Origin: Verrucomicrobiota bacterium
GTDB taxonomy: Bacteria > Verrucomicrobiota > Verrucomicrobiia > Opitutales > T3Sed10-336
Assembly (NCBI GenBank): GCA_003565135.1
Contig: PXDC01000065.1
Span: forward strand, 1-33,502
Direction: 5' to 3'
Length of the DNA stretch: 33,502 nt
Every line of letters begins with the position of its first letter. Positions within the stretch are counted from its first letter, which is position 1. The notes below the pieces were generated by a model, which was given only the letters and a program-made list of their open reading frames with translations, did not search any database and had not been told where the DNA came from. The translations under genes were made by a program, and so were the position numbers. This document shows positions 2,407 to 19,060 of the stretch, piece by piece.

Positions 2407-3900
2407 TCAATGATCGCCTACCTGCTGCCCTGCAACGGCTTTCATCCGTGAAGGGGAAGTTCCATAGGGCGGACGGGACATCGGCCGCTGTTGCGCCCTT
2501 TTGGGCAGATTCGATCCGAAACTTGCTGCTAAAGCGAGCCCATAAACCAATCCCAATGTTATCCAGAATGCCTTACTCGATGAACTTCCATGCGTGCTAA
2601 ACGAGAGTATAAGAAAAACAAGAAGCCCAATCCCAAAAACATTTTTCTGTTTATAGAACTTATGAAAAACCAAGCCCAGAAATCCCAGCATGCTGAACAA
2701 TGCAACCACGCCCATTTCGACCAGCAAATCAACGAATACCGAATGGGCATAAAAGAAGAATCCCGCCTGCGCCGCCATCCATCGGAATGTACCCAAACCG
2801 GTGCCGAAAAACCACTCCTTGCCAACAAGCTGACCGAGAGTCCCCATCCATATCGCAACCCTTGGATCTGATAGGGGTTCGTAGATAAGGCGCTCCATTC
2901 TCAACGCAAACTGACCTCCCAGGATCTCCGGGTCGATATAGGTCAACGTCAAAACCATAACAGAATAAATCACAATCCCAATGATCGGCAATGCCCAGAT
3001 TGAAAGCTGAAATCGGTTCCGACGATCGCCGGAAAAAAGCATCGAGACAACGATAACTGCAAACAATCCCCCGGCTAAGGCGACGATCATTCCCCGCATC
3101 GCCGTCGCAGCAAGGAAAAATCCGAGCAACAAAATGAAAAAGGCCCTCAGGGTAATATTGTTTTCCAATGGAAACATCCTTTCTCCCTGTTCGTGATAAA
3201 AGAAGTCCCTTCTTTTCAGAAGTGCACTCGCGATCAGGATAAAAAGGCCCAATCCTACAACATTCGCTACTGCCCTTACGTTTCCACCTATCGCAAGCCG
3301 CCCCCCTGTGCCAATCTCCTGGACAACCTCGTAATCACTGCTTCCAATATAAAGAAAGCCACCGACGCCGCCTATGACACTTGCTGCAATCAATCCATGT
3401 CCTATGAAGAAAAGACCTTCTCTTTCATGCTTCATAATTGAGGCACAAACCAGAAAAATCGCGATCATCAAGCACAACGATACAAACATGCGGTACTGGG
3501 GCGGTAAATCGGATGAAGCAAACGAGAGCAACGCCGCCGCAATGAGGGCTCCTCCCAAAATAATTCCTCCCCTTTCAAACGGGGCCTTTCTCCCCACCCT
3601 CATACAGTAAACAAGATATCCCACGATCATTCCCGGCATCAGGGTGACAAAGGCGCTGATCGGCATGGTTTCCGCAAGGTGAAGCTCAAAGGGGAGTACC
3701 ATCACAAAAGCGGGCAGCCCAATCCTGGGAGAAATCATAAATGCCAACGTCATCGCCATGGTATAGACGCCCAACAGGGCCAAATCAGCCAATAGGCCCA
3801 TACCAAAGGCGAACAACGCAAAACACCAGATAATACCCACGGGAAGGATCGTGGACTCTTTTTTCCGTCGTCTATTCGGATACATGGAAATATCGTTCAT
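2407..3900 (-). CDS. O-antigen ligase/polymerase-like membrane protein (Wzy/WaaL superfamily)
   Basis: A 497-residue integral membrane protein with roughly 11-12 hydrophobic segments. The hallmark of the Wzy_C/O-antigen ligase domain lies in its last third: a periplasmic-type loop with RMERLIYEPLSDPRVAIW and GTGLGTFRW, then HSVFVDLLVEMGVVAL leading into the next membrane helix. Proteins of this class either polymerise lipid-linked repeat units (Wzy) or ligate the glycan to a lipid or protein acceptor (WaaL/PglL-like). Sequence alone does not separate these. The adjacent flippase gene (103 bases upstream on the same strand) favours the Wzx/Wzy-dependent route. The C-terminus is a short basic proline-rich tail. 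Confidence 0.85.
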   Translation of the reverse strand: MNDISMYPNRRRKKESTILPVGIIWCFALFAFGMGLLADLALLGVYTMAMTLAFMISPRIGLPAFVMVLPFELHLAETMPISAFVTLMPGMIVGYLVYCMRVGRKAPFERGGIILGGALIAAALLSFASSDLPPQYRMFVSLCLMIAIFLVCASIMKHEREGLFFIGHGLIAASVIGGVGGFLYIGSSDYEVVQEIGTGGRLAIGGNVRAVANVVGLGLFILIASALLKRRDFFYHEQGERMFPLENNITLRAFFILLLGFFLAATAMRGMIVALAGGLFAVIVVSMLFSGDRRNRFQLSIWALPIIGIVIYSVMVLTLTYIDPEILGGQFALRMERLIYEPLSDPRVAIWMGTLGQLVGKEWFFGTGLGTFRWMAAQAGFFFYAHSVFVDLLVEMGVVALFSMLGFLGLVFHKFYKQKNVFGIGLLVFLILSFSTHGSSSSKAFWITLGLVYGLALAASFGSNLPKRAQQRPMSRPPYGTSPSRMKAVAGQQVGDH

Positions 3901-4003: not shown

Positions 4004-5467
4004 TCATCTCCATGCTGCCTTAAGAAGAAAACGCAGCTCTTCCGGAAACAGTCGAAGCCCCACGATCAGATAAGTCAAGGCCCCTGTGATTAAGAGGATC
4101 GCCGCCTGGGCCCCCAGCGGCAGGGGCTGAAGGATCGATCCGGCGGCCAAAAGGACAAAAAACATGACCAGGGCAGCCAAAACAGGCTTTGCAATTCTCC
4201 GCATCATCTGAAGGAAGACGTTCCCGATGATCTTGCGGATCATAAAATAATAACTGGCAGGAAGGGAAATGCCCGCCATACCGACGAGCGCCCAGGCCAC
4301 AAGGTGGACGGAGCCACTCATAGCGGCAATTGCGATTATGGCCGGTTTGAACAAAAGCATAACCAGGTTCCAGTAGAGGGACCAATTTGCATGTCCCGCA
4401 CCCATTATCAGCGTTCCGACCGGACCGGTTATCCCTGTGATGAAGGCATAGATCAGGACGATCTGGATGAGTGGAACGCCCCCTACCCATTCTTCACCGA
4501 AGGCAAGAGGAACGACAACCGGAGCTGTTCCCGCAAGGCCGGCAATCAGGGGTGCAGTCACAATCGAAAGGTGTCCGATCATTGACAGGTATCCCTCCCT
4601 CAAACGCGACCGATCATCCTGCAGTCTGGAGAATGCGGGGAATGCCACCCTCGTTACCACCGAATTTATCTTTTTGACTGGGAGCGAACTGAAATTGTAC
4701 GCAAGATTGTAGATTCCCAGCGAAGCCGCCGAAAAAAAAGTCCCAATCAAGATCTGGTCCGCACGTCCGGCAAAGAAATTGGCGAGCATTCCACCGGCCC
4801 GGTACCCACCGAATGCGAGCATTCCTTTTACCTTTCCCAGGGAAAAGTAGAATCCCGGCAGAAAGTTCCCTTTAATGGCGAAGGCAAATAAAACTGTCAG
4901 GCGAACGATCCCTTCGGCAAGCGCTCCCCACACGAACGCCCATACGCCCAATCCGAAGACAGTGACACTGACGGTCATCACACACAGCCCAACGAATAAA
5001 GAAAAATTCGCGGCAAACACAATCTTACCGAAATCGAGAGTTCGCCGGATCATCGACTGGATCTGCGTGCCCGCGGCATTGAGAATGACGGCAACCGCCA
5101 CCACAGAAACGAGCTCGGTCAACTGCGGAAACCCGAAAACCCTTTGGATAAAAGGAGCCAGGCCGAGGATGATCAGGAAGACGACTAAGCCGAACCCGAG
5201 ATTCAACCAGTAAAGCGTCGACTGCTGCTCGTGACTGACCGTTTTCCGTTGAATGATCGCTTCAGCCAACCCTGCCTCGGACAATAAACGGGCGAGATCA
5301 ACGACGATCATCAGGACGGCGATAACACCAAAGGCGCTGGGACCGAGGATACGCGCGAGAATTGTAACCTGGACAAGGCGCAAGACCGTTCCAATCCCCA
5401 TTCCAACGGCATTCCATCGAAGTCCGGACCGGGCTTTTTTCGCTACTTCAGCAGCTTCCATTTGCAT
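4004..5467 (-). CDS. Oligosaccharide flippase, Wzx-like (MOP superfamily)
   Basis: A polytopic membrane protein of about 487 residues from the chosen start. It begins with a cytoplasmic stretch (AAEVAKKARSGLRWNAVGMG) and a first helix containing ILARILGPSAFGVIAV, the recognisable opening of polysaccharide biosynthesis proteins of the RfbX/Wzx class. About 12-14 hydrophobic segments follow, including a GRADQILIGTFFSAASLGIYNLAY region that is well conserved in the family. It should translocate lipid-linked glycan units across the inner membrane. I chose the ATG at 5467, which has AGGAAGG roughly 10-15 bases upstream. The longer frame from 5560 would overlap the methyltransferase gene and add an atypical Cys/Pro-rich leader. 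Confidence 0.9.
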   Translation of the reverse strand: MQMEAAEVAKKARSGLRWNAVGMGIGTVLRLVQVTILARILGPSAFGVIAVLMIVVDLARLLSEAGLAEAIIQRKTVSHEQQSTLYWLNLGFGLVVFLIILGLAPFIQRVFGFPQLTELVSVVAVAVILNAAGTQIQSMIRRTLDFGKIVFAANFSLFVGLCVMTVSVTVFGLGVWAFVWGALAEGIVRLTVLFAFAIKGNFLPGFYFSLGKVKGMLAFGGYRAGGMLANFFAGRADQILIGTFFSAASLGIYNLAYNFSSLPVKKINSVVTRVAFPAFSRLQDDRSRLREGYLSMIGHLSIVTAPLIAGLAGTAPVVVPLAFGEEWVGGVPLIQIVLIYAFITGITGPVGTLIMGAGHANWSLYWNLVMLLFKPAIIAIAAMSGSVHLVAWALVGMAGISLPASYYFMIRKIIGNVFLQMMRRIAKPVLAALVMFFVLLAAGSILQPLPLGAQAAILLITGALTYLIVGLRLFPEELRFLLKAAWR

Positions 5468-5535
5468 CCGGAGACAACCTTGCCTTCCTGACAGGTCCTG
5501 GATCGGAAATTGTCGGCAGGGAAACGGTTCACCGG

Positions 5536-6417
5536 CTAAAACCGGGCCGCCTGCTCCCATTCCGGAAGTTTGACATCACTCCCAAAAGGATCACGAAGCT
5601 CAATCATTCCCGGCTCTTTTTCAAAAACCATATGAACACGTGCAAGCGGAATCTGATGAACGGCTTTACCGGCCAGTTTCCGAATCGCCTGGCCCGTCCA
5701 TGCCCGAGCCACGGTTCGGAACTCGGACTTCAAGTTCTCCCCGTAGCCCAGGAGTCGTATGTGGTGAAAGCCCAATCGCCGGCAAATGGTTCGGACCGCT
5801 CCGGGCGTCGGTTCCCAGAATCCCGTATACCCTTCGATCTTTTCGGAATCGGCAATCGCCCGCTCCCCACCTTCTCCGCCGTTTTTCCGGAATTCCAGGT
5901 TCATCGGATCGAGTGCATCTCCAATCGGGGAATGGTAGGCCAGGCTCAATCTTGACATAAAGGGCAAAACCGGTGTTCGCCACTCCAGTGAAAAAGCATC
6001 GGCAACAGGTCCGACGCTTTGAAGGAACGAAAAAACGTCGGCCACCCGGTGGAGCAGCCCCCACGCCACTACCAGGTCAAAACGTTCGATGCCTCCAAAC
6101 AGCTCTCGGTCGCGCACATCCCCACATTTGAAAGTGACATTGGAAATCCCCAGCAACTGCCTGTTTGCCTCCGCTCGGTCGATTACGGATTGCCGATGAT
6201 CGATACCGACGACCTCCTTCGCCGATTCGGACATATAGAGCGAATGCAATCCCTCGGCGCAACCGATATCGAGGACCCGTTTCCCGGCCAAGTTCAACGC
6301 CCGGGCGATCCGGGCATTCCTTTTACGCAACGTACGGGCCGGCCGGTCGCCGGTCGTGATTTCTCCAGTCGGCAGCCGAAGTCCCGAAAGCGGTTCACCT
6401 GATAGTTGTTTCTCCAT
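5536..6417 (-). CDS. Class I SAM-dependent methyltransferase
   Basis: A 293-residue protein with a classical Rossmann-type methyltransferase core. Motif I is VLDIGCAEGLHSLYM (about residues 48-62), the acidic loop is EVVGIDHRQS, motif II-like is VTFKCGDVRD, and FDLVVAWGLLHRVAD follows as the post-II strand. This resembles UbiG/CmoB-like and Methyltransf_11/23 proteins. The substrate is probably a nucleotide sugar, a lipid-linked glycan or a glycan terminus, judging only from its place between a flippase and a glycosidase-like gene. The ATG at 6417 has no clear Shine-Dalgarno. The 110 bases upstream (6418-6527) hold no gene. Confidence 0.8.
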   Translation of the reverse strand: MEKQLSGEPLSGLRLPTGEITTGDRPARTLRKRNARIARALNLAGKRVLDIGCAEGLHSLYMSESAKEVVGIDHRQSVIDRAEANRQLLGISNVTFKCGDVRDRELFGGIERFDLVVAWGLLHRVADVFSFLQSVGPVADAFSLEWRTPVLPFMSRLSLAYHSPIGDALDPMNLEFRKNGGEGGERAIADSEKIEGYTGFWEPTPGAVRTICRRLGFHHIRLLGYGENLKSEFRTVARAWTGQAIRKLAGKAVHQIPLARVHMVFEKEPGMIELRDPFGSDVKLPEWEQAARF

Positions 6418-6527: not shown

Positions 6528-8087
6528 TTACGGACGTTTCTTCCGTTTCTGCGATAATCCGTCAGCAATCTCGATCAAATAAACATTTGTTTCCGCGATC
6601 GCTTCCAGGTCAAATTTCCCCGCCAACGGGATTTCCACTTCGACGCTTCCGGCCCTTCCATCCGCCGCCCAGGCACCCACCAGCCATTGATCACGGTCCC
6701 GATGTTTGCGCACCAACACCCGTCGGTTCCCGTTCCCCGTCGGAAATTCGTAGGCCGGAAGATCCCGGCTCCACCTATGCCTGTCTGGGCCGGGCAACAA
6801 GCTGCTTTCCAGGAGAAATTCATCGAGATGGCTGAAAAACGCATGTATGCGTGATTGGGCAATGAACTGGGGAAAGGTCGTTTCCACCGGGTCCTGGTAC
6901 GGCCGGGAGCCGAAATAACCGGCAATGGTTCCGATGCCGCCGGCGATATAGCACATCTTTAAAAATCCTTCGTAACGCTCGATATCGGCTATCAAATCGG
7001 GATTCCGTCGATACCAACCGGCCGAAACCCAGTAGTAAGCAAAAGCGGCACCCATGGATAATTCCTGGCCTCGCGCGTTCAGGAGTTGGGAAAGCATATC
7101 TCGCTGGCCGGTGAATCCTGAATTCGCGTGGCGGAAATAAAGAGGCGGCGCAGCCAGGTCACTGACTCCCGGTTGGTAGAGGAAATCGTGATTCTCCCAA
7201 TCAGGTACCATCTTTCTCCGCGTATGTCCGCCGCCGACCTCGCTGTAATGGATGTACATGGCATCGGGAGCCGCTCGCAGCAAAGCTCGTCGCACGACAC
7301 GTTCATGCCGTGCCTTGTGAGAACTGGTAAACTCGAGCCAGGAACGCCCGTCGTTTCTCCACTCTTCCATAACCAGCGGATCCTGTCCGGCAATGCGTTG
7401 CGGAACGAAATGGGGTTTCTTTAAGCCGTATTCGCCTCCATTAAGAATAATCGAAACCGAAGCATACCTTTCGACCGTCTCGATCATTTCCGCGAATAAT
7501 CGTCCAATTCTCACAAATGCGCTGTTTGGCGCCAAGGGACTGAAGTAGTATTCCCCCTCGACAAGCGCTCCATTCTCATTCCGGTAGAACGTCCCCTCCG
7601 GCATATCCTCGCGGTCCAATCCGAAATCAAACGCCCGCGACGGCGCGACTACAAGTTGCAACCTGAATATTTCCGGGTGATCGCGCGCCAGGCGCACAAT
7701 TCGCCCCGGATCACTATTGGGATCGTCCAATTGATCAATATGATCCGGCCGGACGTGCAGGGGCAGTGCAAACCCCCAGTCCTCCGCCAATACCCGGGCG
7801 ACATCAGGTGAAAGAAAACGCCAGTGGGATAGTGCCGGGAGTTTATGGCCTTCCCGAAACTCGGGTTTTTCCTGTTCCGCCAGGAAGGCAATAGCCGCCT
7901 GCGGAGATTGGCCATCCAGGGGAGAGGTATCGATCAATGCCAGAAAAAGGCCAGAAAAAAGGATAACGCGGTAAATAATCAACGAATCCGGAAACCTTCC
8001 ATCCGGGTGCGTGTTAACCAGACCCGCAGTCCGGCCCTTCAAGACCGTTTTTGCCCAAATTCCCACAAAGTTCCGGGTTCGTAACAT
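6528..8087 (-). CDS. Secreted glycosidase-like protein of unknown family
   Basis: About 519 residues. A hydrophobic segment (IIYRVILFSGLFLALI) followed by small residues near SPLDGQSPQA looks like a signal peptide. It would sit at the very N-terminus if translation began at the in-frame TTG at 7982, which has GGAAGG 12 bases upstream; the ATG at 8087 gives a 35-residue basic leader. The middle of the protein alternates strands and helices like a (beta/alpha)8 barrel. It includes SIILNGGEYGL, reminiscent of the Asn-Glu acid/base strand of clan GH-A enzymes. The last ~100 residues look like a beta-sandwich (VLVRKHRDRDQWLVGAWAADG). I cannot name the family. In this locus it may trim or edit the exported glycan. 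Confidence 0.6.
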   Translation of the reverse strand: MLRTRNFVGIWAKTVLKGRTAGLVNTHPDGRFPDSLIIYRVILFSGLFLALIDTSPLDGQSPQAAIAFLAEQEKPEFREGHKLPALSHWRFLSPDVARVLAEDWGFALPLHVRPDHIDQLDDPNSDPGRIVRLARDHPEIFRLQLVVAPSRAFDFGLDREDMPEGTFYRNENGALVEGEYYFSPLAPNSAFVRIGRLFAEMIETVERYASVSIILNGGEYGLKKPHFVPQRIAGQDPLVMEEWRNDGRSWLEFTSSHKARHERVVRRALLRAAPDAMYIHYSEVGGGHTRRKMVPDWENHDFLYQPGVSDLAAPPLYFRHANSGFTGQRDMLSQLLNARGQELSMGAAFAYYWVSAGWYRRNPDLIADIERYEGFLKMCYIAGGIGTIAGYFGSRPYQDPVETTFPQFIAQSRIHAFFSHLDEFLLESSLLPGPDRHRWSRDLPAYEFPTGNGNRRVLVRKHRDRDQWLVGAWAADGRAGSVEVEIPLAGKFDLEAIAETNVYLIEIADGLSQKRKKRP

Positions 8088-8159
8088 CAAACTACGGGTA
8101 GCACGGAGTTATTTTCCCCTCTTCGAACGAAGCACAAAACCGACTCGCTGCCATTTCCA

Positions 8160-10619
8160 TCAGATCGAAACTTCCTGCGGTGAGAAACGCAAGAGCCCGG
8201 CACCCTCGACCGGGACGCAGCTGTAAATTTTCGCCTCCAGCTCCCTGGGTTTATAGTAGTGCTTCTCCAGGCACTTAATCAGATTCCGGATGGCATCCTC
8301 TTCAACAAGAACCATGATACAGCCGCCAAGTCCGGCGCCGGAAAGCTGGGCACCAATCACTCCGGGAACGGCGTTGGCGGTTTCCGCAAGAGCGTCGATT
8401 TCCTCAGTGCTGCAGGCATATGTTCCCGATTCGTAAAGCAGGTTTGCGTTTCGGGCAACCCGCGCATCAAGCGCCGAATCGCTAAAATCGAGCGAAAAGG
8501 GAAAGCGCGGTTCTCCTGCTTCGCCGGCAACCACCCGGTCACCGTCGTGACTTGCCGCCATCAGGCACCCGATTTCCCGCACATCTCCCGCTTCCAGCAC
8601 CGAAGCAAAACGCTCGCTTCGGAGGCATTCACTCAAGCCGTACAGCACAATACCCCGCAAATTGTAGGGACCGATGTCCGCGTGCGTCGCAAAATGACGA
8701 TCCAGCAGTTCCTGCTCTTCATCGGTGCAAAGAGCGCGAAGTTCCTCGCGGGTGGGATTCTCAGGGAGCAATTTGAGCGCGCGGTAAATTTGGTCGGCGC
8801 CTACTCCCAGGCGGTGAGGACACAGGTCGCGCAACCTTTGGATACCGGCGGCCGCCGGCCATTTCCGGGCCAGGAGCATCTGGGCAATTTCGTAGGCGGC
8901 GATCCGCTGGTTGAAGGCGTCTTTAGCTCCGTCGCTCTTTTTCGCTTCGATTCCGCTGTGGGCAACAATGACCCGAAGGTGTTCCGGTAAAGCAACCTGC
9001 TTCTTGAAAGTAAAAGGGAAGAACCCGATTTCGGTAACCGTACCGATTCGACTGGTACGGATGGCCGCATGATCTCCGTTGCCGCCCCGTGAACCGACAA
9101 ACCACTCCCCTTCTCCACAAAGATCGATCAGGTCGGCAATCTCCACATTCAGGCGGTTGAAGGCTATGGCGGCTTCGGCAAACCCAACGACAAGCGCGGA
9201 ACTGGATGATAGCCCGGCGCCAATAGGAATATTACTGCCGACAACGCAGTCCATTCCCCTGAGCACCAAATCCGGCGCTTCGTGCTGGAGTCGCAGAAGC
9301 GGCGCGCGGGCGTAATGGCTCCAGTCACCCGGGGCCTGCTCGATGACTTCACGCACCGTGTGTGAATCGATGAGGTCAAGCCAGGTGTCCCAGCTGGTCC
9401 CCTCCAGGATGTCGCGAATACGGAAACATCGATCCTCAAACCTCGTATCCAAATTATGTAAATGGACCTCGTCGTCATCCCTCGGGGCCGCGGCGACAAT
9501 CGTTTCCCGGCTAATCGCCATGACATTGACATCGCCCCCGCGGTGTTCGATATGCCGACCCATAAGATTTATCCGCCCGGGTGCCCGGCAGATAATCATG
9601 AAACGCTCCGCGCCATGGCGTTCGGCGAATCTCTCGACGACCCGTATCATCTGATCCGCCTGCTCATTGAGCGCGTCCCTATTTGAACCGTACACCCCGG
9701 CCAGGACCGAGAAAAACCCTTCGTCTCGATCACGGAGCAAACTGAGCCACTCGCGGGCGGGCTTGAAGGCATCATAACCGAGTTCCCCGGACTCCCGGGC
9801 ACGCACACGCCGGGGTTGTTCCCGCGCCCGCAACACCTGCTCAATGGCAACCAGTTCGGCGGGGGTGTTGAATGCCATCAGGTCCTGATTACGCTTGACC
9901 TCGACAGCCTCAACGTTGTCCGCGGCTGCACGAATCAGTCCCACCGTATCGGTCAGGTACAACTCACCCTGGCTGTTCCCCGTCGTCAGCCCGGATAAGG
10001 CGCCCAAAAGGGCTTCGAATTGAAAAAGGTAGAGTGATCCGTTGCCGCGAATATCAGCCGCTTCGAGGGAACCGGCGGGGATCTCGTCTCCACCAAGAGA
10101 AAGGGTTTCCCCTTTCCGCCAGGCGGCGTCCAGGTCCGGCTTTTCCACAATTCCGAGGACCGCCCCGTTCCCATCCAGAACGACTCGGCCAGCGCTGGTG
10201 GATTCGTCGTACGGCAATGTGGCCAGGGCGAGGGCCGGCCGCCGGGCCTCAAACCGGTCCAACAGTTCGGTCACCACGTGCGGTGCGACCACCTTGTCGC
10301 CCATGGTCACCATAGCGTTGCCCTCGAACCCCTGGGCCTCCAATGCCCGTGCCGCCACCAGGGTCGCATGCCCGGTCCCTTTGGGTTCCGCCTGAAAAAC
10401 AAAAGTGACCTCCGGGTGCTCGGCCGACACCGTCGACACGACCTGATCACACATCTTCCCCACAACAACCACAAAATGCCGGATACCCGCCTCCTTATAG
10501 GCGTCGATCGCGCGACAAATAGCCGGCCGCCCCAGTATGGGAAAGCAAACCTTGTGAGTATCGGTCGAAGCCATACGCTTGCCCTGGCCGCCGGCGAGAA
10601 TGATGCAGGCTGTGGTCAT
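8160..10619 (-). CDS. Bifunctional sugar-1-phosphate nucleotidyltransferase / galactokinase-like GHMP kinase
   Basis: An 819-residue fusion. Residues 1 to about 265 form a GlmU-type nucleotidyltransferase: LAGGQGKRM is the nucleotide-binding loop, followed by HKVCFPILGRPAI, EPKGTGHAT, MGDK, SAGRVV, VEKPD and YLTD. From about residue 345 a galactokinase-like GHMP kinase follows: RAPGRINLMGRHIEHRGG, then the ATP loop NIPIGAGLSSSSALVVG, FVGSRGGNGDHAAI, and near the C-terminus LSGAGLGGC. The galactokinase sugar signature E-H-T-D is replaced by R-H-I-E, so the sugar is probably not galactose. The kinase would phosphorylate C1 and the other domain add the nucleotide, like Bacteroides Fkp but with different domain families in reversed chemistry terms of order only. 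It starts with ATG at 10619. Confidence 0.85.
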   Translation of the reverse strand: MTTACIILAGGQGKRMASTDTHKVCFPILGRPAICRAIDAYKEAGIRHFVVVVGKMCDQVVSTVSAEHPEVTFVFQAEPKGTGHATLVAARALEAQGFEGNAMVTMGDKVVAPHVVTELLDRFEARRPALALATLPYDESTSAGRVVLDGNGAVLGIVEKPDLDAAWRKGETLSLGGDEIPAGSLEAADIRGNGSLYLFQFEALLGALSGLTTGNSQGELYLTDTVGLIRAAADNVEAVEVKRNQDLMAFNTPAELVAIEQVLRAREQPRRVRARESGELGYDAFKPAREWLSLLRDRDEGFFSVLAGVYGSNRDALNEQADQMIRVVERFAERHGAERFMIICRAPGRINLMGRHIEHRGGDVNVMAISRETIVAAAPRDDDEVHLHNLDTRFEDRCFRIRDILEGTSWDTWLDLIDSHTVREVIEQAPGDWSHYARAPLLRLQHEAPDLVLRGMDCVVGSNIPIGAGLSSSSALVVGFAEAAIAFNRLNVEIADLIDLCGEGEWFVGSRGGNGDHAAIRTSRIGTVTEIGFFPFTFKKQVALPEHLRVIVAHSGIEAKKSDGAKDAFNQRIAAYEIAQMLLARKWPAAAGIQRLRDLCPHRLGVGADQIYRALKLLPENPTREELRALCTDEEQELLDRHFATHADIGPYNLRGIVLYGLSECLRSERFASVLEAGDVREIGCLMAASHDGDRVVAGEAGEPRFPFSLDFSDSALDARVARNANLLYESGTYACSTEEIDALAETANAVPGVIGAQLSGAGLGGCIMVLVEEDAIRNLIKCLEKHYYKPRELEAKIYSCVPVEGAGLLRFSPQEVSI

Positions 10620-10771: not shown

Positions 10772-11773
10772 CTACCGGGCGCGAAGCCCCGTCGCCTCCT
10801 GTTCACGAAGAAAGGACCGGTAAGTCGAGGCAATGCCTTCGTCCATCGGGATCCCGGCCGCCCAGCCGAGATCCTTCATGCGGGAAACATCGAGGAGTTT
10901 GCGCGGGGTTCCGTCGGGTTTGGATGTATCGAATTTGATTGTGCCCGTATACCCGATGGCCGATTTCACTTTATCCGCCAGCTCGGCAATGGACACGTCC
11001 TCGCCCACCCCGACGTTGACCCAGTCGGGGGGCGCTTCAAGTTCCAGAAGGTGCAGGCAGGCTTCGGCCAGGTCGTCGACGTGCAAAAATTCGCGGCGGG
11101 GCTTTCCGGTACCCCACACGACCACCTCCGGATCGCCGCGCTCCTTTGCTTCATGAAAACGCCGGATCAGGGCCGGAAGTACGTGGCTGTTTTCCGGGTG
11201 GTAGTTGTCGCCGGGACCGTAAAGGTTGGTGGGCATGGCCGAGTGAAACAGCACCCCGTACTGTTTCCGGTAATACTGACAAAGTTTCAGGCCGGCTATT
11301 TTGGCGATGGCGTAGGCTTCGTTGGTCGGCTCCAGGGGGCCGGTCAGGAGGCAATCCTCCGGCATCGGCTGGGGGGCGTGCTTCGGGTAAATGCAGGAAC
11401 TGCCCAGAAACAGGAGGCGCCGGATTCCGGCCGCCCATGCCCCGTGAATCAGGTTCTGGGCAATGGCCAGGTTTTCGTAAAGGAATTGGGCGGGATAAGT
11501 ATTGTTCGCATGAATCCCCCCCACCCGGGCCGCCGCGACGATGACCGCGTCCGGTTGCTCCCGCTGGTAGAAATCCCGGACGGCTTCCTGGCTGGTAAGA
11601 TCGAGCTCATCACGGGTCCGCGTAATGACATTCGTCCAACCCCGCGCCTCGCAGGCGCGAACCAGGGCGCTGCCGACCATGCCTCGATGACCGGATACGA
11701 ATAAACGCGTTCCGCGCTGTACCGGGTTGGTAGCGGCTTTGCCGCTGTGCGTGGATCCTGATTCCTGGTGCAT
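10772..11773 (-). CDS. fcl: GDP-L-fucose synthase
   Basis: This enzyme epimerises and reduces GDP-4-keto-6-deoxy-D-mannose to GDP-L-fucose with NADPH. It is an extended SDR protein: the cofactor loop is [11 protein letters not shown], followed by the family-typical [19 protein letters not shown] and FLGSSCIYP (catalytic Ser). The YAIAK motif supplies the catalytic Tyr and Lys, and [22 protein letters not shown] is near-diagnostic. I chose the ATG at 11773, giving 333 residues. The longer frame from the GTG at 11830 overlaps gmd by 32 bases, and its nearest purine-rich site is too far away. It lies directly behind gmd, completing a two-step pathway from GDP-mannose. Confidence 0.93.
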
Positions 11774-11798
11774 GAAGCCCATTCCGCGCGGCGCCTGG

Positions 11799-12836
11799 TT
11801 AGCGCGAAGCGCCACTGCGTTCACTTTCACGGAAACGCGCGTACCGCGCCTCCTCTTCAGCGAGTTTCAGGTCGTGGTCGACCATAAGTTTAACGAGTTC
11901 CTTGAACTTGTATTTCGGTTCCCAGCCGAGCTGTTTCCTCGCTTTGCCCGCATCTCCCACCAAAAGGTCCACTTCGGCCGGCCTTTCGTAACGGGAATCG
12001 TGTTTTACGTACTGCTTCCAGTCGAGATCGAGAAGACCGAAGGCCTCCTCGCAGAATTCGGCCACGCTGTGGGTTTCACCGGTCGCCACCACGTAATCGT
12101 CCGGGTTGTCCTGCTGCAGCATCAACCACATCATTTCGACATACTCCTTGGCGTATCCCCAGTCGCGCCGGGCGTCGACGTTTCCCAGGTAGAGGGCATC
12201 CTGGAGGCCGGTCTTGATGCGTGTCGCCGCCCGGGTGATTTTGCGGGTAACAAAGGTTTCTCCACGGCGGGGAGATTCGTGATTAAAAAGGATCCCATTG
12301 CTCGCGTGCAGGTTGTAGGACTCGCGATAATTGACCGTGAGCCAGTAGGCGTATACCTTGGCGCAACCATAAGGCGAACGCGGCCAGAACGGCGTCGTTT
12401 CCCTTTGGGGAACCTCCTGGACCTGGCCGAACATTTCCGAAGACGACGCCTGGTAGAAACGAACCTTCTTGACCAGGCCGGCCTCACGGATCGCCTCCAG
12501 GATTCTCAACGAACCGAGCCCGCCGACGTCCCCGGTATACTCCGGAATATCGAACGACACCCGAACATGGCTTTGGGCACCGAGGTGATAAACTTCGTCC
12601 GGGGCAAGCTCGTAGAGCAGCTTCACCATCTGGACCGAATCGGCCAGATCGCCGTAGTGCAGAATCAAACGATTCCCGGGGCTGTGGGGATCCTGGTAGA
12701 GGTGATCGATCCGAGACGTATTAAACGTCGATGCCCGCCGGATGACGCCGTGGACTTCATACCCTTTCTCCAGGAGCAGTTGCGCCAGGTAGGATCCGTC
12801 CTGCCCGGTGATGCCGGTAATGAGCGCTTTTTTCAT
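11799..12836 (-). CDS. gmd: GDP-mannose 4,6-dehydratase
   Basis: A 345-residue extended SDR enzyme that converts GDP-D-mannose to GDP-4-keto-6-deoxy-D-mannose. It opens with [20 protein letters not shown], the Gmd version of the GxxGxxG loop, then [18 protein letters not shown], which binds [21 protein letters not shown] holds the catalytic Ser/Glu, and [12 protein letters not shown] the Tyr-x3-Lys. [16 protein letters not shown]-type residues follow as [15 protein letters not shown]. The length is normal for the family. fcl follows immediately, so the pair makes GDP-L-fucose (or a related 6-deoxyhexose precursor). No GDP-mannose-producing genes are present in the window. Confidence 0.96.
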
Positions 12837-14604: not shown

Positions 14605-15579
14605 TCAGGAATCCGAAGCACCGGTCTGCACCCTTCCCGCCTTGGCGAGCTCCCGGAAAAACGCTATGGTCTGTCTCAACCCCTCATCCAGGGGAATGAC
14701 CGGCACCCACCCCAGGTACTTCTTCGCGAGGGCCAGGTCGGGCTGGCGCTGGAGGGGATCATCCGCCGGCAGTGGACGGAAGGCGATTTTAGATCCGCTT
14801 CCGGTCAGCTCGATCACTTTCTCCGCCAGCTCGAGAATGGTGAATTCGGACGGGTTGCCCAGATTCACCGGCCCCACGGTTTCCTCCTGTTTCATCAGCC
14901 GCATGAACGCCTCGATCAGGTCGTCGACGTAGCAGAACGACCGGGTTTGCTCACCTTTGCCGTAGATCGTAATAGCCTCTCCCCGGAGCGCCTGAATAAT
15001 AAAGTTCGACACCACTCTCCCGTCATCCTCCAGCATGCGCGGCCCGTAGGTGTTGAAGATACGGGCGACACGGACGTCGACCCCGTTCTCCCGGTGGTAG
15101 TCAAAGAACAGCGTCTCGGCGCAGCGTTTGCCTTCGTCATAACAGGCGCGCGGCCCGATCGGATTGACGTTGCCCCGGTAGGTTTCCCGCTGGGGGTGTT
15201 CGGTTGGATCCCCGTACACCTCGGAAGTCGACGCCTGGAAAATCCGGGCTTTCACCCGCTTGGCCAGGCCCAGGCAGTTGATCGCCCCGACCACCGAGGT
15301 TTTCACCGTCTTGATCGGGTTGTATTGATAATGGATGGGCGAGGCCGGGCAGGCCAGGTTGAATATCCAGTCGACCTCGACCTTGAAAGGATCGGTGACG
15401 TCGTGCCGCATGATTTCGAAGCGGGGATTCTTTTCCAGATGGAGGACATTGGCCTTCCTGCCCGTAAAGAAATTGTCGAGACAGATCACCTCGTGCCCCT
15501 CGGAAAGGAGCCGTTCACAAAGATGGCTGCCGAGAAAACCGGCGCCGCCGGTAACCAGTGTACGCATAACAGAAATCAT
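14605..15579 (-). CDS. UDP-glucuronate decarboxylase (UDP-xylose synthase)
   Basis: A 324-residue extended SDR enzyme that oxidises UDP-glucuronate at C4, decarboxylates it and re-reduces it to UDP-xylose. [19 protein letters not shown] binds [19 protein letters not shown] and [12 protein letters not shown] follow, and [17 protein letters not shown] is typical of the UXS group. STSEVYGDP and [14 protein letters not shown] carry the catalytic Ser/Glu and the Tyr-x3-Lys, and [10 protein letters not shown] completes the signature. The ATG at 15579 has GGGAGG nine bases upstream; a second ATG at 15567 lacks one. It is downstream of galU and the glucuronokinase-like gene, so its substrate could come from glucuronate salvage. 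Confidence 0.92.
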
Positions 15580-15703: not shown

Positions 15704-16546
15704 TCATTGCAGCGCCCTCCGCAGCCCGTCGGGATTGCCGATGTCATGCCGGACACCGGAGAGGACGACGGCGTGAAATCCCTCGCGCTCCATCAGGGCC
15801 TTCATGGCATCGGTGAGCTGAATCTCGCCGTTCCTGCCGGGCGTTGTTTTCTCCAGCTCCGGAAAAAGGCCAGGCGTAAAGACGTACCGGGCGGCAAAGG
15901 CGTAATGCCCGGGCCCCGCCCCGGAACCGGGGTCGATCACGGGCGCTTCGTCCGCGGCCGGTTTCTCCACCATTTCGCGCAGGCAAAAGACCCCCGGGGC
16001 CACCGCCTCGCCGCCGGCCACGCCGTAGCGGCCGACCCGTTCGGAGGAGACCGGCTCCACGGCGACCACGGAGGTTTCGCGCTCCTCAAAGGCCGCCACG
16101 AGTCGGGTCATAGTGGACGGAACGGGGCTCGGGCCCGGCCCGATGAACGTATCTCCCAGCAGAACACCGAACGGTTCATCGCCCGCAAACGCCCGCCCCT
16201 GCAACACCGCATCGCCGAGCCCCTTCATCTCGTTCTGGTAAACGTAATGAATCCGGGCCATTTCCGAAAGGCGCCGGAGCCCCTCGGCAAGTTCGCCTTT
16301 CCCGGTCGCCTCCAGGCGCCGCTCGAGCTCCGGATTCCGCGCAAAATAATCCGGGATGGCTTCCTTGCCCCGGCTGATCACCACCAAAATCTCGTTCAGA
16401 CCGGCTTCCACCGCCTCCTCCACCACGTACTGGATGACCGGTTTGTCGCCCACCGGCAACATTTCCTTGGGCACCGTTTTGGTAATGGGCAGGAACCGCG
16501 TGCCGAACCCGGCCGCGGGAATAATCGCTTTGCGAATACGTAACAT
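15704..16546 (-). CDS. galU: UTP-glucose-1-phosphate uridylyltransferase (GalU type)
   Basis: 280 residues of GalU-type nucleotidyltransferase. AIIPAAGFGTRFLPITK is the nucleotide-binding loop, and KEMLPVGDKPVIQYVVEEAVEAG is near-identical to the family consensus. Further marks are YVYQNEMKGLGDAVLQG, GVLLGDTFIG with the metal-binding Asp, and MVEKPA. The known reaction is UTP plus glucose-1-phosphate to UDP-glucose. It lies between a glucuronokinase-like gene (35-base gap) and UDP-xylose synthase (124-base gap). It might therefore accept glucuronate-1-phosphate here; that is inference from context, since the motifs look like ordinary GalU. Confidence 0.9.
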   Translation of the reverse strand: MLRIRKAIIPAAGFGTRFLPITKTVPKEMLPVGDKPVIQYVVEEAVEAGLNEILVVISRGKEAIPDYFARNPELERRLEATGKGELAEGLRRLSEMARIHYVYQNEMKGLGDAVLQGRAFAGDEPFGVLLGDTFIGPGPSPVPSTMTRLVAAFEERETSVVAVEPVSSERVGRYGVAGGEAVAPGVFCLREMVEKPAADEAPVIDPGSGAGPGHYAFAARYVFTPGLFPELEKTTPGRNGEIQLTDAMKALMEREGFHAVVLSGVRHDIGNPDGLRRALQ

Positions 16547-16581
16547 GCAGACGAATCCGGTTTATCTTGTCGCCGCCACGA

Positions 16582-17613
16582 TCAGCCCGCTTGAACAGCT
16601 TCGGCATCGGTGTAAACCGGGGCAAACTCCGGCCGGATGACCACGATATTCTTCGGTGCGAACACCTCCTCCAGGCGCTGGAACATGGCGTTATCCTCGT
16701 AGGTTCCGACAATAGCACCCCCGCTTCCGGCAAACTTTGCGCTCGCTCCGACCTTCCGGGCGGTCTCCACCAGGTCCCGGTTGCCGTCGCCCACGTCATA
16801 AAGGTTCGCCCGCTTGTCGAAGTTCGCATCGAGCAAACGCCCGATTCCGGCACGGTCCCCGTTCAGCAGCGCGCCGCGGCAGCTTTCGGTCAGGTCGGCC
16901 CAGAATTGCATGGCCTCACAGACATCGGGATCTCCCCGCTGCCAACGGAGCTTCAGGTCGTTGTGGTAAATTTCGGTGCCCTGCGAAAGGTCGTCCCGGT
17001 ACGCGATATACAACGGCGGCAGGCAGGCGACATCGAGGTTTTCGTAACGCCCGTACCCGTTCCGTTCGAAATACTTTCGGTCGAAATCCATGTACACCAA
17101 GCCCTGGTAGGCCTGGGCCACCCGGTCCTGCAGGCCGGCGGGGATAGCCAGTTCCTCGGTCTCCACGGAACGCACCACGTTGGCCAAAACCGGACGGTCG
17201 ATCTCGACCCCGTAAAACGCGGTCAACGCCCGCATACAGGCCGTAATAATCGCGCTCGATCCGGCCAGGCCGACCCGGTTCGGAATATCGGATGAATACC
17301 GGATGGTGAAATTTCTTTCGTCCAGTTCGATACCGTTTTCGCGGCAGTGATCGTAGAACCGCTTGATGCTCGCCTTGAGCAGCCGGAATCCCCCGTAATA
17401 ACCGTGCTTACGGACATCGTCGTGCAACGAGGCGATGCTCTGGAAAACCGAGTGATCCCGGCGACTGGGAACCAGTTCGATCTCGGGCGACTCCCACAGG
17501 GAAATCCGGGCGGAAAAATTGGTGAAACAGAACGCGATGGTTTTCCCGAAGTAGCCGTCGGACGGATTTCCGATCAAACCGGCGCGTGGATAGGCAACAG
17601 TACGTATAATCAC
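16582..17613 (-). CDS. GHMP kinase resembling plant glucuronokinase
   Basis: A 343-residue GHMP-superfamily kinase. The N-terminus has AGLIGNPSDGYFGKTIAF, matching from memory the LGNPSDVYFGRTI of Arabidopsis glucuronokinase. The same holds for YYGGFRLLKA near residue 73, the ATP loop IPNRVGLAGSSAI (110-122), and IPAGLQDRVAQAYQGLVYMDF (158-177). In the C-terminal part SAKFAGSGGAIVG is GHMP motif 3. Glucuronokinase makes glucuronate-1-phosphate from free glucuronate and ATP. The start is GTG at 17613, overlapping the cysQ stop as GTGA, with GGGAG nine bases upstream. Other sugar kinases of this superfamily (for example heptose kinases) are possible, but the Asn-Pro-Ser-Asp signature favours a uronic acid or related sugar. 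Confidence 0.78.
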   Translation of the reverse strand: MIIRTVAYPRAGLIGNPSDGYFGKTIAFCFTNFSARISLWESPEIELVPSRRDHSVFQSIASLHDDVRKHGYYGGFRLLKASIKRFYDHCRENGIELDERNFTIRYSSDIPNRVGLAGSSAIITACMRALTAFYGVEIDRPVLANVVRSVETEELAIPAGLQDRVAQAYQGLVYMDFDRKYFERNGYGRYENLDVACLPPLYIAYRDDLSQGTEIYHNDLKLRWQRGDPDVCEAMQFWADLTESCRGALLNGDRAGIGRLLDANFDKRANLYDVGDGNRDLVETARKVGASAKFAGSGGAIVGTYEDNAMFQRLEEVFAPKNIVVIRPEFAPVYTDAEAVQAG

Positions 17614-18434
17614 AAATTCGAACTCCCGTCGTTATTTTCCAGGATCAAGGACAAAGCGCGGTCGGCAAGCGCCCGGTCCCCCGCCGTCAGCAGGGCCGGG
17701 TTGCGAAGATCGTCCTTGTTGTAAACCAGCGGCCGCTTCTCCAGCGTCAGCACCTGCCCGCCCGCCGCCTCGACGATGCATTGGGCCGCCGCCACGTCCC
17801 ATTCCATGGTCGGCGCATCCCGAAGGTAAAGGTCCGCCTCCCCTTCCGCCACGAGGCAGAACTTCAAGGCGCTTCCCATGCTGCGCGCCTCCACACCGGG
17901 AAACACCTCCAGCAACCGCTTGACCTGGGGTCCGGCATGATCCCGGCTCGCCACAAACGTGAGCCCGGCGGCAGGGGTGTCTCCGGCGGGTGCCGGTCGA
18001 ACGCGTATCCGCTCGGCGGGCGCCCCGTCGATCTGCTTCCAGGCGCCCCGACCCTTTTCCGCGGAGTAGGTCCATTCCCGCGCCGGAACATGAACGACGC
18101 CGAGCACCGCCTCCCCGTCCTCGATCAGAGCGATATTTACCGTGAACTCACCCGTTTGTTTGATAAATTCCTTCGTGCCATCGAGGGGGTCGACCAGCCA
18201 GAACCGCTTCCAGCTTTTGCGTTCGCGGATCTCCTCCTCGTCGGACTCCTCGGAGAGCACCGGAATCCCGGCGTCAAGCGCACGCAGCCGCGTGCATATG
18301 TACGCGTGCGCGGCCCGGTCCGCCTGGGTCAGCGGCGAATTGTCCGCCTTCGCCTCCACTACCCCCTGGCGGCCGTAATACCTCAATATTTCGATACCGG
18401 CCTCAACCGCAATCTGTCTGATCGAATCAAGCAT
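17610..18434 (-). CDS. cysQ: 3'(2'),5'-bisphosphate nucleotidase, CysQ family
   Basis: 274 residues from the ATG at 18434, which has AGGGG about ten bases upstream. It belongs to the inositol monophosphatase superfamily. SPLTQADRAAH (33-43) is CysQ-like, SEESDEEE (61-68) provides metal-binding acids, WLVDPLDGTKEFI (79-91) carries the D-P-x-D-G-T signature, and MEWDVAAAQCIVEAAGG is the second metal motif. CysQ hydrolyses PAP, the by-product of sulfotransferases and sulfate reduction. Here it is translationally coupled to a sugar kinase (GTGA overlap) and follows a membrane-protein gene closely. It may instead act on a sugar phosphate, or support glycan sulfation; no sulfotransferase is seen in the window. 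Confidence 0.85.
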   Translation of the reverse strand: MLDSIRQIAVEAGIEILRYYGRQGVVEAKADNSPLTQADRAAHAYICTRLRALDAGIPVLSEESDEEEIRERKSWKRFWLVDPLDGTKEFIKQTGEFTVNIALIEDGEAVLGVVHVPAREWTYSAEKGRGAWKQIDGAPAERIRVRPAPAGDTPAAGLTFVASRDHAGPQVKRLLEVFPGVEARSMGSALKFCLVAEGEADLYLRDAPTMEWDVAAAQCIVEAAGGQVLTLEKRPLVYNKDDLRNPALLTAGDRALADRALSLILENNDGSSNL

Positions 18435-18445
18435 GACAATGTCCC

Positions 18446-19060
18446 CTACCATTCCTCCTCCACGGACACCGTTCTCGCGGCCGCCACCACCAGGCCCCGT
18501 TTGGTGGTGAAGGCGTAAACGATCGGCAGGACAATCAGAGCGCACAAGAGCAGCAACTGCAGGCCGATTCCGGAGAAAAAGTACCCGAACACCCCGACGA
18601 CCAATCCCATCACAATAAAAAAGACCTCGGGCGCGTTAAGAATCCGCCCGAACACCAGTCCCGCCGCAATGGCGTACAGCACCATCCACCACTCGAAGAG
18701 CACGAGGCTCAGTCCGCTCACCAGGAACACCGGCGCCAGGCAGTAAAGGTGTCGCCGCCGGTAGTAAGTGTTGAGCATGATCCCGACTGCAAAAACGCCC
18801 GCCATCCAGCCGAATTCCTCGTAGAAAGTATCCAGCTCGCGGTCGAGCTCGAAGGTGTGGTGGAACAACAGGTACGCGCCCGCCGCGCCGCGTACCAGGT
18901 CGAGCCAGTTCTGCCACGGAATGAGAATACCGGGCAGGGGAAAGCCGCCGGACTGCTGGGACTCGGTGACTCGCCGGCGAACGTGACTGGTAAAAAACAA
19001 GTACGATGGGATCCATAAACAAAGAATCGAACCCGCCAATGCCCAAATATTAAATTCCAT
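18446..19060 (-). CDS. Unknown multi-pass membrane protein, tandem paralogue 1
   Basis: A 204-residue protein with about five or six hydrophobic helices; I do not recognise the family. It shares with its upstream neighbour the conserved core WQNWLDLxRG, then a small-residue step and LLFHHTF, later RRHLxCLxPVF, GLSxxL and WWMxLYxxxAGL. The N-terminus in both is xxFxIWxLxxSxxxLWxPxYLFFxS followed by a basic/acidic cytoplasmic-type segment (SHVRRRVTES). Two histidines in HHTF and two tryptophans in WWM are candidates for functional residues. It ends 11 bases before the chosen cysQ start, so it is probably co-transcribed with the nucleotide-sugar genes. No function is assigned. Confidence 0.7.
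   Translation of the reverse strand: MEFNIWALAGSILCLWIPSYLFFTSHVRRRVTESQQSGGFPLPGILIPWQNWLDLVRGAAGAYLLFHHTFELDRELDTFYEEFGWMAGVFAVGIMLNTYYRRRHLYCLAPVFLVSGLSLVLFEWWMVLYAIAAGLVFGRILNAPEVFFIVMGLVVGVFGYFFSGIGLQLLLLCALIVLPIVYAFTTKRGLVVAAARTVSVEEEW

Follow-up and report, generated by a model that had tools for sequence, protein, structure and literature searches.

A GlmU-type nucleotidyltransferase fused to a GalK/GALK2-type kinase, a possible one-chain route from free N-acetylhexosamine to UDP-HexNAc

The window, that is the whole stretch of 33,502 nucleotides that was analysed, encodes a single chain in which a GlmU-type nucleotidyltransferase is followed by a GalK/GALK2-type sugar kinase. Our preferred reading, to which we give an even chance of being right, is a bifunctional salvage enzyme converting a free N-acetylhexosamine, most likely GalNAc, into UDP-HexNAc. 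The C-terminal GHMP domain would use ATP to phosphorylate C1 of free GalNAc (most likely; possibly GlcNAc or both), the N-terminal domain would join the sugar-1-phosphate and UTP to give UDP-N-acetylhexosamine and pyrophosphate, and the intermediate may be channelled from one domain to the other. Where relatives have an adjoining 4-epimerase (WbpP/TviC type or GalE), that enzyme would convert UDP-GalNAc and UDP-GlcNAc into each other, and in the window genome the product might supply the surrounding O-antigen/EPS-type gene cluster. The single chain, both folds, both sets of catalytic residues, their conservation throughout the family and the gene neighbours were established by computation. The gene and its parts are the following:

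8160..10619 (-), nucleotidyltransferase-kinase fusion, whole gene (819 aa, ATG start, free of internal stops)
9810..10619 (-), GlmU-type uridylyltransferase domain, residues 1-270 (Pfam PF00483, NCBIfam GlmU models, VIA Z 34 to GlmU 3spt over residues 2-269)
8184..9677 (-), GalK/GALK2-type GHMP sugar-1-kinase domain, residues 315-812 (Pfam, PDB, Foldseek, VIA-align, family profile)
9525..9560 (-), sugar-binding signature GRHIEHRGGDVN, residues 354-365 (EHTD changed to RHIE)
9069..9086 (-), catalytic-base loop GGNGDH with D516, residues 512-517 (MDQ changed to GDH)
10548..10598 (-), nucleotide/phosphate loop LAGGQGKRM...HKV, residues 8-24 (R15 and K23 each 82/82)
10368..10394 (-), uracil-binding motif of GlmU type QAEPKGTGH, residues 76-84 (Q76 and G81 82/82; function assigned from knowledge of GlmU)
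10293..10301 (-), G-D-K, residues 107-109 (D108 in the place of the Mg ligand; K109, 78/82, where GDVP of GlmU has V)

The open reading frame was intact, and Pfam, AlphaFold2 and VIA-align agreed with the original prediction of one 819-residue chain made of a GlmU-type nucleotidyltransferase and a galactokinase-like kinase. In the domain-architecture search, Pfam gave a GlmU-type N-terminal half (NTP_transferase, residues 6-226) and a GalK/GALK2-type C-terminal half (GalKase_gal_bdg 329-379, GHMP_kinases_N 443-520, GHMP_kinases_C 721-789), all four matches exceeding the curated cut-offs. The top NCBIfam matches were GlmU for the first half and galactokinase for the second, both far under their equivalog cut-offs: 118.5 bits for TIGR01173 (GlmU, cut-off 366.85), with a match that stops at profile position 242 of 452, and 139 bits for the galactokinase model TIGR00131 (cut-off 226.65). 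The AlphaFold2 model had a mean pLDDT of 90 and a pTM of 0.71, meaning that the relative placement of the two domains is less certain. Foldseek and VIA-align matched residues 2-270 to GlmU (Z 34, rmsd of 1.9 A) and residues 315-812 to galactokinases (Z 38, with an rmsd of 2.0 A over 379 residues); residues 250-335 were modelled as helices with hardly any strands. Structure prediction thus bears out both folds, whereas the roles given here to active-site residues were assigned by alignment and from what is known of galactokinases and GlmU.

The whole-chain top match in the PDB was the GalNAc kinase GALK2 (4e-28, against 1e-18 for galactokinases). A profile of the family scored GALK2 at 198 bits, with yeast Gal1 at 152 and human GALK1 at 134, and GALK2 also ranked first by Foldseek E-value, but VIA-align placed GALK1 slightly over GALK2 (Z 38 vs 36). 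For the other half, we infer that UTP is the favoured nucleotide donor, from the Q..GTG uracil loop and from NCBIfam and fold matches to GlmU over GTP- and ATP-type enzymes.

The kinase motifs were found altered as had been announced: R355-H-I-E358 occupies the place of the galactokinase E-H-T-D, and G515-D516, followed by H517, that of M-D. These changes are fixed across 82 aligned homologues, in which R355 and H356 were present in 82/82, D or E at 358 in 82/82, and G or A at 515 in 80/82. The catalytic Arg and Asp of the galactokinase fold were kept (R349 and D516, each 81/82). Residues R355, H356, G361, G362 and N365 and the stretch CGEGEWFV were invariant, and the family motifs GRH[IV][DE]HRGG and CGEGEWFVGSRGGx[GA]DHAA almost so. 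Such near-invariance of odd motifs indicates fixed features of a coherent subfamily, rather than a decayed galactokinase or noise. Together with the neighbouring genes described below, the invariance of the altered residues backs the earlier suggestion that the sugar differs from that of galactokinase. By alignment, Arg355 falls at the Glu of galactokinase (Glu43) and GALK2, which we take to face the C6 side of the sugar; as GALK2 keeps this Glu, the C6 side of the fusion differs even from that of the GalNAc kinase. In the nucleotidyltransferase, the positions kept in the family were R15, K23, Q76, G81, D108, E159, N193, Y221 and T223, and alignment shows that the uracil, Mg and GlcNAc-1-P site residues of GlmU are retained (Q76, G81, D108, G144, E159, N193, Y221, T223). 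Position 251, by alignment the counterpart of GlmU's second Mg ligand, was N in 58 and S in 24 of the 82.

Fusions of a sugar-1-kinase and a pyrophosphorylase are already known from Fkp and zebrafish GKUP, and the present one uses other domain subfamilies. In the Bacteroides L-fucokinase/GDP-fucose pyrophosphorylase Fkp, an N-terminal pyrophosphorylase and a C-terminal GHMP kinase lead from free sugar to NDP-sugar (PMC11982464), and the fusion has the same order in one chain. The pyrophosphorylase half of Fkp has a beta-helix domain and uses GTP (PMC11982464), whereas that of the fusion is short, of GlmU type and with a uracil-type motif, and its kinase is of GalK/GALK2 type. Five Pfam families had matches at E 0.001, the fucokinase/fucose pyrophosphorylase family not being one of them, and no beta-helix follows the pyrophosphorylase fold in the AlphaFold2 model. 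The proposal of Fkp-like logic built from different domain subfamilies therefore stands. The zebrafish glucuronokinase/putative UDP-GlcA pyrophosphorylase DrGKUP shares the domain order, with a nucleotidyltransferase of ~260 aa and then a GHMP kinase of ~357 aa (PMC3938481). Compared by description, it carries a glucuronokinase-type kinase, whereas the kinase of the fusion has ~500 aa, a GalKase_gal_bdg domain and GALK2 as best match, the last two tending against a glucuronokinase-type domain.

Human GALK2 shares with the fusion, in the PDB alignment, F-N at residues 569-570 and Y-x-C-S at 734-737. It differs in that GEHIDY and GGMDQ become GRH[IV][DE]HR and GGx[GA]DH in the fusion family, and the fusion has an insertion between SHDGDR and YACS besides the fused nucleotidyltransferase. 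With GalK, the fusion shares the fold and the catalytic Arg and Asp, but the EHTD and MDQ signatures are missing and the TIGR00131 cut-off is not reached. From GlmU it has the uridylyltransferase fold and active-site positions, but not the C-terminal acetyltransferase half (left-handed beta-helix), and at aligned positions it has M for Y and K for V around the Mg ligand, and C for L following the catalytic Lys. Being built from other domain subfamilies, and failing the tests that define Fkp, GalK and GlmU, the fusion stands as a variant apart. NahK plus GlmU follow, for amino sugars, a logic of 1-kinase then uridylyltransferase; NahK plus GlmU and AmgK-MurU alike are separate proteins, their kinases coming from another fold family. 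The same reaction logic is proposed for the fusion, and AmgK-MurU applies it to amino sugars (PMC13046382).

A homologue search found 223 stretches, at least 208 of which encode relatives of the fusion, and the best 80 of 208 were kept. By record, the relatives belong to Planctomycetota, Verrucomicrobiota, Lentisphaerota, Kiritimatiellota, Hydrogenedentota, Acidobacteriota, Bacillota, Bacteroidota and candidate divisions; since every one of these records is metagenome-assembled or uncultured, individual taxon assignments could be in error. Occurrence is patchy. Counting the window genome, the fusion was present in 3/53 genomes of its set of relatives, and relatives of it were found in 4/386 genomes of an Acidobacteriota search, in 13/385 genomes of one Clostridia family, and in 7/294 genomes of the phylum of locus L022 (Planctomycetales by record), some of the latter being kinase-only. 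Searches in phages and plasmids yielded no matches, and no literature on this fusion was found in open PMC papers. The window genome has a second copy, 63% identical (genome G000, contig C157, locus L117, 6433-9213); a 302-aa gene devoid of NCBIfam match lies just upstream of it.

In six Clostridia genomes, two genes (~305 aa nucleotidyltransferase, ~528 aa kinase) take the place of the fusion, and galE is the next gene; the spacings range from -4 to +11 nt and the break point lies near residue 297 of the L065 query. In the tree, these split forms nest within the fused clade, which identifies them as fissions. A sequencing error was considered as the origin of the split genes, and rejected given a break common to six genomes, the short overlaps or gaps and the nesting. 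Kinase-only relatives were also found, and in two of them (L110, 7088-8857; L111, 6490-8115) Met occupies the Arg355 position (GMH[IV]DHRGG). This wide spread and the split form are additions to the original prediction, which had left the sugar unnamed.

The neighbours of these relatives point to the sugar. A WbpP/TviC-type UDP-HexNAc 4-epimerase gene was directly adjacent, on the same strand, in six loci (L056, L061, L063, L065, L077, L078), WbpP being the nearest solved relative of the TviC-like proteins. GalE, above its cut-off, lay directly downstream of the fusion in L043 and L053. NagA was directly adjacent in L050 and in the close group L026/L038/L054, and also beside the stand-alone kinase gene of L110. 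An AGE-like (N-acylglucosamine 2-epimerase-like) gene adjoined the fusion in L079, with a MurQ-like gene next in line, and a TviB-type UDP-GlcNAc dehydrogenase was next to or near it in L077 and L078. Among 828 flanking ORFs with 76 adjacent slots, 10/10 counted matches of NagA, WbpP-type and GalE fell in the adjacent slot, no strong match to these families being found farther out in the flanks. The corresponding hypergeometric probability of 2.4e-11 ignores relatedness and concerns three recurrent families picked after inspection, and therefore overstates the case; the Clostridia loci and the Acidobacteriota loci are each closely related sets, so that independent events are fewer than loci. 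The strongest link to a HexNAc sugar is the nucleotidyltransferase-kinase-galE order of the six Clostridia genomes, which came from further searches run after the HexNAc hypothesis had been formed. The GalEs of these split operons read GDVAECYAD, which puts a small residue at the gate (ECYAD). This region reads PAYWAD in E. coli GalE, and a small residue at the gate is, as known from human GALE, compatible with UDP-GalNAc and N-acetylated UDP-sugars. The small-gate GalEs are compatible with UDP-GalNAc, and with UDP-Gal too.

Other neighbours were rarer: gmd and fcl beside the fusion in L035, as in the window; GH127 beta-L-arabinofuranosidase-type genes near it in L059, L069 and L075; and a glucuronate isomerase in line with the gene, at or near it, in L145, L056 and L052, all from one small Clostridia set. 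A Na/solute symporter (beside the fusion in L052, near it in L056) was dropped as a clue to the sugar, being nearest to proline transporters. In L056, a phosphonopyruvate decarboxylase gene (7537-8652) lies two genes upstream of the fusion.

The choice of an N-acetylhexosamine follows from a kinase nearest to GALK2, from the GlcNAc-site residues of GlmU kept in the nucleotidyltransferase, and from the adjacent HexNAc genes; GalNAc is preferred over GlcNAc because the kinase lineage is of galacto type and a 4-epimerase pairs naturally with UDP-GalNAc. Against this reading stand Arg355 in place of Glu, the VIA-align rank of GALK1, the glucuronate isomerase neighbours, and a window in which no HexNAc gene adjoins the fusion. 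Arg355, present in 82/82 on the C6 side, can instead be combined with Lys109 (78/82, next to the Mg ligand): such a fixed cationic pair would suit a carboxylate, and the substrate could be galacturonate, glucuronate or N-acetylhexosaminuronate, with Arg355 in the kinase and Lys109 in the nucleotidyltransferase binding the C6 carboxylate, and the resulting UDP-uronic acid then 4-epimerised by the TviC-like enzyme. The glucuronate isomerase genes would fit, as would TviB and TviC, makers of UDP-HexNAcA and UDP-GalNAcA, beside the fusion in L077 and L078. The plant GalA kinase motif, which we believe to be GAHIDHQGG, resembles the family GRHIDHRGG. We nevertheless hold a hexuronic acid to be unlikely, though worth keeping in mind: the tightest-coupled neighbours, GalE and NagA, take neutral sugars or the corresponding phosphates as substrates, the TviC-like proteins are closest to WbpP, a UDP-GalNAc epimerase, and the isomerase is limited to the one Clostridia set. 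It is rather unlikely, in our estimate, that the widespread fusion turns the free acid directly into a UDP-uronic or UDP-N-acetylhexosaminuronic acid, its invariant Arg and near-invariant Lys reading the C6 carboxylate; such a salvage route, if real, would be new to bacteria.

Another sugar, such as L-arabinose, MurNAc or a 6-deoxy sugar like fucose, appears improbable. The GH127 genes, the MurQ-like gene of L079, and gmd with fcl (which point to fucose) each argue for one of these, but such links are few and the genes coupled less tightly; moreover gmd-fcl already turn mannose into GDP-fucose, and the nucleotidyltransferase appears to be UTP-type rather than GTP-type. Plain galactose, with the fusion bypassing GalT in one protein (Gal via Gal-1-P to UDP-Gal, from which GalE gives UDP-Glc), would agree with the galactokinase fold (Z 38) and with GalE as third gene of the split operon. 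We find it quite improbable, as the invariant R355 and G/A515 replace galactokinase residues, the score stays at 139 bits for a galactokinase equivalog cut-off of 226.65, NagA and WbpP-type genes are the neighbours, and C247 of the window genome carries another, separate GalK-like gene in which the usual HTD motif is present. Finally, the kinase half might work alone, beside an inactive nucleotidyltransferase. The variable second Mg-ligand position (N or S) would allow it, and in the zebrafish and frog glucuronokinase fusions kinase activity was shown, the pyrophosphorylase being unconfirmed with recombinant protein in vitro (PMC3938481). We give this very little credence, since the remaining catalytic positions hardly vary over many phyla and the split form retains an intact nucleotidyltransferase gene within the operon.

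GlmU above cut-off was absent from 17/19 fusion-bearing genomes. The fusion was considered, and rejected, as a substitute for the missing enzyme: relatives lacking the fusion also lack GlmU, found above cut-off in 0/53 relatives of the window genome and in only 3/40 relatives of a Clostridia carrier (G060), so that the absence is lineage-wide. Lineages devoid of canonical GlmU above cut-off must use another UDP-GlcNAc enzyme. Should N-acetylhexosamine salvage hold, many uncultured Planctomycetota, Verrucomicrobiota, Lentisphaerota, Clostridia and Acidobacteriota would own a one-protein route from free amino sugar to UDP-amino sugar, a counterpart of Fkp for the UDP-HexNAc pool of cell walls and surface glycans. 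It would account for the way in which such bacteria recycle GalNAc or GlcNAc out of glycans of a host or the environment, and provide a useful one-pot enzyme for UDP-sugars and labelled glycans.

Around the fusion, the window contains:

10772..11830 (-), GDP-L-fucose synthase-like (fcl), upstream neighbour (497.9 bits, cut-off 500)
11799..12836 (-), GDP-mannose 4,6-dehydratase (gmd) (548.7 bits, cut-off 415)
6528..8090 (-), 520-aa protein, downstream neighbour, 69 bp from the fusion (no match in Pfam, NCBIfam or PDB)
4004..5560 (-), MOP-family polysaccharide flippase (Pfam, NCBIfam)
2407..3900 (-), O-antigen ligase/polymerase-like (Wzy_C 29.3 bits, slightly below the Pfam cut-off of 31.7)

The cluster also holds an aminotransferase and methyltransferases. 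It is consistent with glycan assembly of O-antigen/EPS type and silent on the sugar of the fusion: no HexNAc gene touches it in the window, where its neighbours are the GDP-fucose genes. The idea that the product feeds the adjacent glycan genes thus gains a cluster of the right kind, its link to the steps of that cluster being plausible. The 520-aa downstream protein was looked for near the homologues of the fusion, and not found there.

Farther along the window, a GHMP kinase (16582-17613, (-)) starting YPRAGLIGNPSDGYFGKTI, presumably a glucuronokinase signature, adjoins a GalU-like uridylyltransferase (15704-16546, (-)). This pair (15704-17613) appears to correspond, in unfused form, to the glucuronokinase/pyrophosphorylase of zebrafish, and is flanked by an SDR gene (14605-15579) and an inositol monophosphatase-family gene (17610-18545).
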